64,000 nt of DNA from Cylindrospermum sp. NIES-4074. GTDB lineage: Bacteria; Cyanobacteriota; Cyanobacteriia; Cyanobacteriales; Nostocaceae. The stretch lies in the NCBI GenBank assembly GCA_003994795.1, contig AP018269.1:1-64000 (forward strand), given 5' to 3'. A program made the position numbers and the translations under genes. Shown piece by piece: positions 7,744 to 10,508 of the stretch. The first letter of the stretch is position 1. Each line of letters begins with the position of its first letter. The notes under the pieces are model-generated. The model saw nothing but the letters and a program-made list of their open reading frames with translations, was not told where the DNA came from and searched no databases.

Positions 7744-8126
7744 GGCATCACCCCGCAACTGAATATGATGATTATAATGCTGGCTGTGTGCGATCGGTAC
7801 AAATCCCTTCAAGCGTATCGGTTCGCCAATCATAGCAGATGGCTTAATATGTTTAATTAGAGAAGAATTATATTTATAGCTGTTGTTGATGGAATCTATC
7901 ATATTTTTTGTGTGGGATTGTTAATTGAGGTGAGAGGAGATATTTAAAACTGTAAAAATACTTAAACACCTATAGAATTATCAATTATTCTACCATCAAG
8001 ATTATTTATTTCCTGATGATGTAATCAATTTAATGCAGTGAAAATACTGTAGTAGCTTTAGTAATAAATCTGGTTCAATTACAAAAGCAAACGGTTTTGC
8101 CGATATTCCCGTTTGATAATTATGTA
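7744..8126. other. Gene-free, AT-rich gap at the left edge of the ParA island
   Basis: No convincing reading frame, RNA or element ends were seen. The composition becomes distinctly richer in A and T than the SDR gene to the left and stays so through the next two genes. A TTG-initiated extension of the next gene reaches to 8097. Confidence 0.5.
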
Positions 8127-9497
8127 ATGGTACTTACAGACTGGAATCAAATTTTAGATAACATTCTACCAGATGAGAGTAATGAAGCCATCATCAGCAA
8201 TGATTTTGTACGACCTCTTATAAAGGCACTTGGATTTAATAAACAAGAGCAGATTCCAGAATTTCCTACAGGAAATGGAACAGTAGATTTTGCTATACGC
8301 AAGAATACTGTGGGTGATATTTTCTCATCTACTAAAACTAATCCCTATTTACTTGTTGAAGTTAAGGCACGAGCAACAGGGTCAGGAGCAAAGATTAATT
8401 TATTAGAAGGCACTCCCCAATACATCAGCACTAGAGAGCAAATAAAAAGATATCTACTTGCTTCTGAGTGCAATACATCTCAATGGGGCATTATTACTAA
8501 TTCAATTCATATTCAATTATTCCGGCGACATGGTAGAGTTGTTGTACCCGCAACTTCTAGCATATTAATTAAAAAAGATAATATTCATAAAATTGTTGCT
8601 GATATCAAACATTTGATTGACCATCCACCCAAAGCATTAATTGTTTGCTTGTATAATGATAAAGGAGGTGTGGGGAAAACTACAACTACTATCAATTTAG
8701 CAGCTACCTTAAGAAACCAGGGCAAGAAAGTTCTGGTAATTGATTTTGATCCACAACAAAGAGATTTAAGTGAGATCCTTAAAGTAGAACCAACAGATGT
8801 TAAAATTTCCGACTGCCTAATTAATAATCAACTAAATATTGCTGATGCCGTTCAGCCTTTTTATTTAACGACTAAATCTAATAAGAAAGTACATATATTC
8901 GATGTCATTCCTTCAGATAAAAAACTAGAAGAATATATGTTACCTGAATATAGTGCCAAAATTCAAAAAGGCCCAGCAAAACTAAGAGATTTAGTTAATA
9001 TTTTTATATATAACTATGATTATATACTGATTGATGCCCCTACTAACTGGACATTTTTTAGTAAAAGTTCTGTATATGCTTCAGATGTGGTACTGATACC
9101 AACTAAACATAATAATTTTGCATCTATTAAAAACGTTGTGAAAGTAATTAAGCAGTTTATTCCCGAAATTCAACAGCAAAGAAATGACGGTAGACCAATT
9201 GCTTTACCAATATTTTTCAATGAGCATAAACCTACTGATGCTTCAATCCATAGAGCCAAAACAGAAATTACAAAAATACTGACTATTAATAATGGACAAA
9301 GACCCATAATAGATAATCAATTATTGCCATACTTTTATCCTAAAGCTAGAAAAGGCAATTTTGATACAACTATATTCCACATTCCAGAATATGCTGTTGT
9401 TTCTAGCGCTGCATTTGCTAATATACCAGCAGTTTTTCAACATAAACATGTGGCTGAATATTATCTCGGTTTGGCTGAGGAGTACTTTATTGTATGA
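8127..9497 (+). CDS. HsdR-N-like nuclease domain fused to ParA-family ATPase
   Basis: 456 residues from ATG 8127 (an in-frame TTG at 8097 would add ten). Residues about 1-145 resemble the N-terminal domain of type I restriction R subunits. DFVRPLIKALGF is the conserved entry helix, and VDFAIR (Asp about 54) with LLVEVKA (Glu about 78, Lys about 80) form a PD-(D/E)XK-like site. Residues about 170-456 are a ParA/Soj ATPase: deviant Walker A KGGVGKTTTT (about 179-188), switch region VIDFDPQQRDLS, and Walker B DYILIDAP. The second gene overlaps by 4 bp (ATGA), so the two are coupled. Base composition is more AT-rich than the neighbours. The domain union is unusual; whether it cuts DNA is not shown. 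Confidence 0.82.
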   Translation: MVLTDWNQILDNILPDESNEAIISNDFVRPLIKALGFNKQEQIPEFPTGNGTVDFAIRKNTVGDIFSSTKTNPYLLVEVKARATGSGAKINLLEGTPQYISTREQIKRYLLASECNTSQWGIITNSIHIQLFRRHGRVVVPATSSILIKKDNIHKIVADIKHLIDHPPKALIVCLYNDKGGVGKTTTTINLAATLRNQGKKVLVIDFDPQQRDLSEILKVEPTDVKISDCLINNQLNIADAVQPFYLTTKSNKKVHIFDVIPSDKKLEEYMLPEYSAKIQKGPAKLRDLVNIFIYNYDYILIDAPTNWTFFSKSSVYASDVVLIPTKHNNFASIKNVVKVIKQFIPEIQQQRNDGRPIALPIFFNEHKPTDASIHRAKTEITKILTINNGQRPIIDNQLLPYFYPKARKGNFDTTIFHIPEYAVVSSAAFANIPAVFQHKHVAEYYLGLAEEYFIV

Positions 9498-10291
9498 GTG
9501 ATTTTGATAATATTGGCAAACTAATGCATCTTCCCTTAGAAGATATTGAGTCTGGAGAGAAGTTTTCTGAATCGGAATTTATTATTAAAGGAGCAGCAGA
9601 GGCAGTTTTAAAAGCAGATGGGCGAAATTGGATTCCTCTAATTGTCAAAGAAACTAGTGACGGTAAATATGAAGTTATTAGCAATCAATTTATATATGCA
9701 GTTGCTCAACAAGCTGAGTTAGAGCGGGTTTGGTGTATAGTAATTTCACCTGAGACTCAAATTATTGAACAGGTAAAAATTTTGGCTAGAGAAGTAACTC
9801 CTAAAGTAAATCTATCCACAGCATCAAGAGATACGATTCTAGCCGCACTGAGATACTTAATTGCAGAACCAGGTAGTGCATTAAAAGGTGTAGATCCTAT
9901 CGTTGCTACAAACAGAATTGCAGCAGCAGAGCGGGAAAAGTGGTCAGATTTTAACCCTATTACTACTTTAAAATGTGGTATTACTAAAGGCAAAAAATTA
10001 GATGCTCTGACTAAAGTGTTCTTTTTACCATCACCTCAGAAACTTCCACCACCGCCACCATTACCAGAGATTATTAGTATTAAACGTGCTTCCAGGGATG
10101 AAATATTTACTCGTTTAAGTTATTTATCCAAATACAAAATAGATAACTTTGAAGTTGATGTAGAAAAAGCATCTGACATTATATTCAGTGAAAGTAAAGG
10201 TAAATGGAAAAGCTTAAATCCTATTTCTAAACTTGACTGTGGTATTGATGCTAAAAAAATCAAGACTCTGAAAAAAGTGTTTAGTCTCTAA
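9494..10291 (+). CDS. ParB-like protein with two C-terminal helical repeats
   Basis: 265 residues, start ATG overlapping the stop of the ParA fusion. Residues about 8-92 look like a divergent ParB/Srx-type domain: LPLEDIESGE, then GRNWIPLIVKE and KYEVISNQFIYAVAQQA, in the order beta-strand, ligand loop and helix of ParB N-domains. The usual GERR-type CTP/phosphate motif is replaced by ISNQF. The C-terminal part has two related units of about 65 residues, starting ASRDTILAALRYL and ASRDEIFTRLSYL. Each ends in NPI, CGI and a Leu-Lys-rich KVF, separated by a Pro-run linker (PPPPPPLPE). I do not recognise the repeat. By position it is the partner of the ParA ATPase. Confidence 0.75.
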   Translation: MSDFDNIGKLMHLPLEDIESGEKFSESEFIIKGAAEAVLKADGRNWIPLIVKETSDGKYEVISNQFIYAVAQQAELERVWCIVISPETQIIEQVKILAREVTPKVNLSTASRDTILAALRYLIAEPGSALKGVDPIVATNRIAAAEREKWSDFNPITTLKCGITKGKKLDALTKVFFLPSPQKLPPPPPLPEIISIKRASRDEIFTRLSYLSKYKIDNFEVDVEKASDIIFSESKGKWKSLNPISKLDCGIDAKKIKTLKKVFSL

Positions 10292-10374: not shown

Positions 10375-10508
10375 AGTGGCGTGACATAGCTAAAATAGTG
10401 CATTATCTTTTTCTTGTAGAACAGGCGTCTCGCCTGTTTTGGGAGGGCGAGACGCCCACCCCACAAGAAGCTTCATTTTATGCATCATTTTAGTCTTGCC
10501 ACGCCACT
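10375..10508. mobile_element. MITE-like element with about 28-bp terminal inverted repeats
   Basis: 134 bp. The left end AGTGGCGTGACATAGCTAAA and the reverse complement of the right end AGTGGCGTGGCAAGACTAAA match imperfectly over about 28 bp. The interior holds two GGCGTCTCGCC-type palindromes. There is no coding capacity and no clear target duplication. A second, rearranged copy of the right end lies at 29379. It closes the AT-rich ParA island on the right. Confidence 0.75.

Follow-up and report, generated by a model that had tools for sequence, protein, structure and literature searches.

A nuclease-ParA fusion and its ParB-like partner in Cylindrospermum sp. NIES-4074: a candidate transferable DNA-surveillance module of cyanobacteria

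Introduction

ParA and ParB proteins are known to transport DNA as well as other cargo. ParA undergoes ATP-dependent dimerization, binds DNA nonspecifically and has an ATPase activity that is stimulated by its partner. In ParABS systems (ParA/Soj with ParB/Spo0J), an ATPase with a deviant Walker A motif (KGGxGKT) has a ParB-fold partner encoded directly downstream, and multiple parS sites or iterons are present. DndI and SspE, which act in phosphorothioate-based defence, each sense modified DNA with a single polypeptide that combines a ParB-like domain and a nuclease. The R subunit of type I restriction enzymes carries an HSDR_N domain, of a family to which MmeI_N also belongs, with an E...D...ExK active site. 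A survey of ParB-CTPase-fold domain fusions describes, in its accessible part, divergent ParB-fold proteins tied to mobile elements, among which a DUF3850 fusion alone was consistently encoded together with parA (PMC12704722).

Here, a gene pair was analyzed in a 64,000-nt stretch of the genome of Cylindrospermum sp. NIES-4074 (contig AP018269.1, positions 1–64,000; hereafter the window, to whose forward strand the coordinates below refer unless a locus is named). The pair shares with ParABS the deviant Walker A ATPase and the ParB-fold partner encoded directly downstream, but its ParA is fused to a nuclease domain, its partner is devoid of a GERR box or HTH family match and ends in repeats or a Rho_N domain, and it occurs patchily, sharing three plasmids with other partition systems. 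Of repeats that might be compared with parS sites or iterons, the window copy has one inverted repeat, and a 21-bp array lies upstream of another copy (L010). With type I restriction R subunits the fusion has in common the domain family and the active site, but it contains no SF2 translocase motor, its ATPase being ParA, and no hsdM or hsdS (methylase and specificity genes) was found beside the window copy. As in DndI and SspE, a ParB-like domain would work together with a nuclease, except that in this pair ParA bears the nuclease and the ParB fold belongs to a second polypeptide. The nuclease-ParA pair is unmentioned in the accessible part of the fusion survey (PMC12704722), and a literature search, mostly judged by titles, returned no account of an HSDR_N-ParA fusion. 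Judged from its sequence, the pair looks like an undescribed, transferable DNA-surveillance module.

Results

The first gene (8,127–9,497, forward strand) starts with ATG and encodes 456 amino acids, with an HSDR_N-type PD-(D/E)XK domain and a ParA domain in one intact frame; an in-frame TTG at 8,097 is a possible alternative start. The nuclease domain (8,127–8,621; residues 1–165) contains the putative active-site residues E20, D54, E78, and K80. An earlier note on this DNA had proposed an HsdR-N nuclease fused to ParA, and profile searches bore this out. Residues 26–133 of the window copy matched Pfam HSDR_N_2 (E = 7.7e-5, 23.2 bits, slightly below the 25-bit cut-off), and among 21 diverse N-domains of the family, 15 matched HSDR_N_2 and 7 matched HSDR_N at E ≤ 0.01. 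A profile search of the N-domain against PDB sequences gave nothing significant, with MmeI as the top match (E = 0.14). The structure model of the fusion was of low confidence (mean pLDDT 56.7, with block values of 34–48 across residues 1–100), and its order of strands and helices was compatible with a nuclease domain.

The active site was examined in an alignment of 50 fusions, gathered via the partner or by sequence similarity and including the window copy and near-duplicates. E20 was found in 49/49 rows (1 gap), D54 in 48/49 (1 gap), E78 in 50/50 and K80 in 49/50. One locus, L142 (10,338–11,717), is the exception, with D54G and K80T occurring together and both ORFs still open. This conservation of the PD-(D/E)XK site predicts nuclease activity. 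A frameshift, which the earlier note had named as a possible explanation of the junction, or a chimera was ruled out because the same fused ORF is present in nine full-length relatives (59–65% identity) and in plasmid copies (27–46%).

The remainder of the same ORF encodes a ParA/Soj ATPase domain (8,634–9,497; residues 170–456) with the deviant Walker A motif KGGVGKT. Residues 172–349 matched AAA_31/ParA (Pfam, E = 5.5e-31), the domain matched Soj/ParA chains in the PDB, and Walker residues K184 and T185 were present in all 50 aligned fusions.

The second gene (9,494–10,291, forward strand, 265 amino acids) overlaps the stop codon of the fusion in an ATGA, as previously noted. Its N-terminal domain (9,494–9,787; residues 1–98) has a ParB/sulfiredoxin fold without the GERR motif, again in agreement with the first reading of the sequence. 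Residues 47–87 matched ParB_N below the cut-off (Pfam, E = 0.008), and the structure model (mean pLDDT 84.9, pTM 0.50) resembled ParB, Noc, PadC, KorB, and sulfiredoxin (Foldseek, best E = 3.9e-6). At the position of GERR most partners have N-x-F-x-Y (N64 in 51 of 54 rows without a gap, and F66 and Y68 each in 41), which makes canonical CTP binding by these proteins doubtful. A ParA-binding motif, LG-R/K-GL, is given for the ParB N-terminus in the accessible part of the fusion survey (PMC12704722). In the partners, G8 was found in 51/51 non-gap rows within (I/V/L)-G-x-L, and the following residue was K or R in 17 of 56 rows.

The rest of the partner contains the two repeat copies that had been recognized earlier, at 9,806–10,027 (residues 105–178; four helices in the model, possibly helix-hairpin-helix-like) and at 10,073–10,291 (residues 194–265), both on the forward strand. 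Over 74 residues they share 38% identity (E = 2e-12 in a single BLAST comparison), and single-repeat partners align to both copies. A profile comparison of the repeats at 99.7% was set aside because the window row has gaps at the template columns. Some relatives have a tail with a Rho_N domain in place of the second repeat, and Rho_N was above the cut-off in three of the six module partners scanned (E = 4.4e-8, 2.6e-6, and 5.1e-8). The repeat of the window lineage (type I) matched HHH_3, the ComEA-type helix-hairpin-helix (HhH), with a probability of 17% and a score of 20.5 (best of 30 shuffles, 17.2). Four tails of sister-lineage partners (type II) matched HhH at 80% with a score of 30.1 (hhalign; best of 30 shuffles, 12.4), and type I repeat and type II tails showed no similarity to each other (0.6%). 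The resemblance of the repeat to a helix-hairpin-helix is thus suggestive, being weak in the window lineage and better in the sister lineage.

On two IMG/VR contigs with phage-like genes by eye (L108:6834–8285 and L109:1–747), the partner N-domain was found at the C-terminus of longer proteins, with no fusion within the stretch examined. These proteins are possibly decoys or phage partition proteins.

Occurrence was studied in 386 cyanobacterial genomes. The partner profile matched 46 of these and the N-domain profile 77, other HSDR_N proteins among them. At E ≤ 2.2e-24 there were 49 N-domain places, comprising 3 short ones (206–256 amino acids) and 46 long-frame fusions (open frame of at least 424 residues). 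The latter lie in 44 genomes, a count that includes G121 and G357, each reported with one stop. For 41 of the 46 long-frame fusions, the partner follows immediately downstream; in this count G357 was taken from match coordinates only, and one or both ORFs are shortened in G121 (L146) and G105 (L173). The five fusions without an adjoining partner are four from one family (f24) and L284. The distance between the two genes was −59 to +53 nt in 38/38 measured pairs, with ORF starts taken as the first ATG, GTG, or TTG, and 16 pairs have a 4-nt overlap as in the window. A search of 72,556 plasmid records found fusions (query coverage of at least 80%) on seven, all cyanobacterial, and partners on exactly these seven; they include two plasmids of 77,793 bp, from two strains of Leptolyngbya boryana. 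In phage records, no match covered 80% of the fusion and the whole partner had no match (tblastn), while among the best 80 of 361 matches on viral contigs the full pair was found on one (L027). These data indicate that the pair is conserved as a unit. Median dN/dS values for seven Nostoc modules (21 pairs) were 0.31 for the nuclease (range 0.11–0.74), 0.18 for ParA and 0.15–0.17 for the parts of the partner, which places every domain of the pair under purifying selection.

A sister lineage (L271–L275, L277–L279, L289, and L290) combines HSDR_N, usually a longer linker, and ParA. A ParB-like protein with a different tail follows downstream in 9 of these 10 loci (5 by profile, 4 by eye), and at the tenth, L274, none of the ParB-like partner was found beside the fusion. 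The active-site letters of this lineage are recognizable by eye, and both lineages occur together in some genomes.

The GC content across the pair in the window is 0.30–0.36, compared with mostly 0.38–0.50 around it. This agrees with the AT-rich island described earlier, but the MITE that was said to bound it is not a boundary. This MITE-like element (10,375–10,508), with imperfect terminal inverted repeats, belongs to a repeat that is dispersed through the genome (48 matches), lies on one side of the module only and is not part of it. Just upstream of the fusion start codon is an inverted repeat, CAAACGG-14 nt-CCGTTTG (8,088–8,115), a pattern that, with a spacer of 10–18 nt, has a single match in the whole 7.7 Mb genome. 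Of 11 aligned Nostoc-type upstream regions, 9 have both arms exactly, L014 has one change and L140 a degenerate form. It is a probable operator or single recruitment site. No iteron array was found at the window copy; the array of L010 (5,653–5,860) lies some 140 bp ahead of the module and is made up of 21-bp tandem repeats.

The nearest neighbours in the window are genes for an SDR protein, a vWA protein, and rtcA, and the Nostoc copies are beside or near rtcA; neighbour names (SDR, vWA, rtcA, rpsB, tsf, and ATP synthase) were recognized by eye. An rtcA match was obtained in 23 of 40 Nostocaceae genomes searched, four partial matches being left out. Among 16 further Nostocaceae rtcA loci, the module was present in one (L187, apparently the L015 contig) and absent within 3–8 kb beyond rtcA at the other 15. 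Partner remnants lie beside rtcA at L149:9708–10277 and L175:9866–10108, where the fusion is gone, and these are decayed copies. Elsewhere the pair is often found among housekeeping genes, e.g., the ATP synthase operon, and many copies are on chromosome-size contigs. Six loci of one genus (L158–L163) have common neighbours. In a quick tree of 68 fusions, 12 of whose 65 inner branches are open, the family labels (55 labelled rows) need 32 changes, where the minimum would be 18 and shuffled labels need 39 on average. Together, these observations mark the pair as accessory, patchy, horizontally transferred, and decaying.

Modules of three families (L142, L150, L152, and L158) have ATP synthase genes in the same stretch, which is possibly an insertion hot spot. 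The four fusions without an adjoining partner that belong to one family (L280, L281, L282, and L283) come from four genomes of 2.5–3.3 Mb, and three of them are beside rpsB- and tsf-like genes. A tRNA gene was found within the examined stretch at 5 of the 45 loci scanned.

Sequence comparison with Nostoc modules identifies the window copy as a recombinant, in which about 700 bp of the ParA core has been replaced and the nuclease and partner are still of the Nostoc type. The approximate tract (8,745–9,460, forward strand) is delimited by drops in protein and DNA identity and by dS. Protein identity to the Nostoc modules falls from 70–86% over residues 1–200 to 33–70% and recovers in the partner; for seven Nostoc-type modules the values are 74–81% (residues 1–200), 49–52% (residues 206–456), and 72–81% (partner residues 1–180). 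The resulting difference is 23–30 points, while the average of 758 pairs is 6.4 (sd 5.1), and a truncated member, L146, shows differences of 17–26 points against many others. DNA identity to L010–L012 is 48–73% inside the tract, 74–94% on the nuclease side and 67–91% on the partner side. dS is 1.2–1.4 in ParA, compared with 0.42–0.82 in the nuclease and 0.4–1.0 in the partner. From the higher dS and the drop in DNA identity it follows that the ParA segment most likely diverged by exchange and not by selection. The exchange suggests that ParA carries specificity that can be swapped.

Known defence genes were not enriched beside modules in a comparison, using PADLOC, of 128 proteins encoded up to 6 kb from 18 modules with 146 proteins from 18 chosen control regions of the same genomes; L152 and control L214, proteins of <150 or >1000 residues, and 11 of 30 loci, for which there was no control, were left out. 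Proteins flanking modules matched 79 PADLOC families at E ≤ 1e-10, and control proteins 112. Among the most-matched families listed, mad3, mad8, and AriA appear on both sides alike. On the module side, the matches listed include restriction enzymes of type IV (two) and type II (one); type I restriction, Cas12, and Tns are among those listed for the controls. The fusion itself was matched in its ParA region only, by the candidate family PDC-M28B (E = 3.1e-9), and beyond such ParA-region hits the pair had no defence-specific PADLOC match. The earlier expectation of a fusion and partner in many genomes and near defence genes therefore holds for the many genomes and not for the proximity to defence genes. 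The absence of enrichment may still be compatible with a solitary defence gene pair.

Discussion

The reading that we tentatively favor is that of a two-gene accessory DNA-surveillance module, consisting of a nuclease-armed ParA and a ParB-like adaptor, acting most likely against foreign or competing DNA. With ATP, the ParA part would dimerize and coat DNA without sequence specificity, and the dimerization would also bring two nuclease domains together. The adaptor would dock on ParA and, via its tail, on DNA. It would mark the target, e.g., incoming or independently replicating DNA, and trigger ATP hydrolysis and cleavage, while the inverted repeat before the start codon might serve autoregulation. 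The pairing of nucleases on ParA-coated DNA and the choice of target by the adaptor are inferred steps.

Surveillance by the pair is consistent with the nearly invariant active-site and Walker residues of the 50 fusions, with purifying selection on all domains, with the partner directly downstream in 41/46 cases and the same seven plasmid records for both genes, and with Rho_N in three of six partners scanned. Its horizontal spread, its absence or decay at Nostocaceae rtcA loci and the mosaic window copy point in the same direction. Other observations fit less well, namely the lack of defence gene enrichment nearby, the absence of a defence-specific match except PDC-M28B in the ParA region, the retention of both ORFs in L142 without D54 and K80, and the 5/46 fusions without an adjoining partner. 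Among the best 80 of 361 viral-contig matches the full pair was on L027 alone, phage records held neither 80% of the fusion nor any partner match, and the repeat as the DNA-binding part is a candidate. A bolder version, with ParA loading on all DNA, the adaptor telling chromosome from invader and the nuclease cutting the invader, would make the ParA core a specificity cassette that lineages swap by recombination and the lone N-domains of phage-like contigs possible decoys; in this full form it seems unlikely.

Plasmid-borne copies bring in a different role, replicon maintenance or competition, which we regard as somewhat unlikely. The pair would be a plasmid-born stabilizer of the ParA/ParB type whose nuclease cuts unpartitioned or incompatible plasmids, and chromosomal copies would be captured cassettes excluding related plasmids. 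ParA combined with a ParB fold fits such a role, as do the seven plasmid records and the 12.6-kb plasmid ABRG53g, on which the ParA of the pair is the only ParA-type gene found; the single upstream inverted repeat could be a centromere. However, two Nostoc sp. UHCC 0870 plasmids with the pair also carry ParM and a third carries another ParA/ParB pair, separate systems that also favor surveillance. Many copies are on chromosome-size contigs, those of L158–L163 with common neighbours, the inverted repeat occurs only once in the genome, and no iteron array accompanies the window copy. Partition of the carrier is disfavored because copies are patchy, many are on chromosome-size contigs, and these three Nostoc plasmids have other systems. 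A relic of a plasmid partition system, as the earlier note suggested, does not agree with the conserved catalytic residues and the purifying selection on all domains.

The tails of the partners could instead recognize branched or damaged DNA (HhH or Rho_N) for a chromosomal repair or recombination factor, in which ParA positions a structure-specific nuclease. An HhH-like tail is supported for four sister-lineage partners by the 80% match (30.1, shuffle best 12.4), the pair is often among housekeeping genes, and it is present in two small genomes of 1.7–1.8 Mb (G165 and G310). Against this, it occurs patchily, in 44/386 genomes, has been transferred, has decayed in relatives, and is also plasmid-borne; a repair function appears improbable. 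A selfish or non-functional cassette, promoting only its own spread or degrading as a relic, is very improbable: although homology between window and Nostoc DNA begins about 100 bp before the fusion ORF and ends at the partner stop, the module of L012 (5,506–8,282) is flanked by a 128-bp direct repeat of the rtcA 3′ end (91% identical), and some copies have decayed, every domain is under purifying selection, and the other loci tested had no comparably long direct repeat (38 bp at L170, short at L027, at most short matches in the rest).

The earlier proposal of a defence or partition module is partly supported by these results. Its architecture and a conserved module are supported, enrichment of known defence genes nearby was not found, and defence and partition are both candidate functions. 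A ParA with an intact nuclease site, in a conserved, selected, and transferable pair, would extend the ParA/ParB repertoire to the destruction or processing of DNA. With 44 of 386 cyanobacterial genomes carrying the fusion, it is common enough for direct testing, and the pair could bear on transformation and resistance to phages in an ecologically and biotechnologically weighty phylum.
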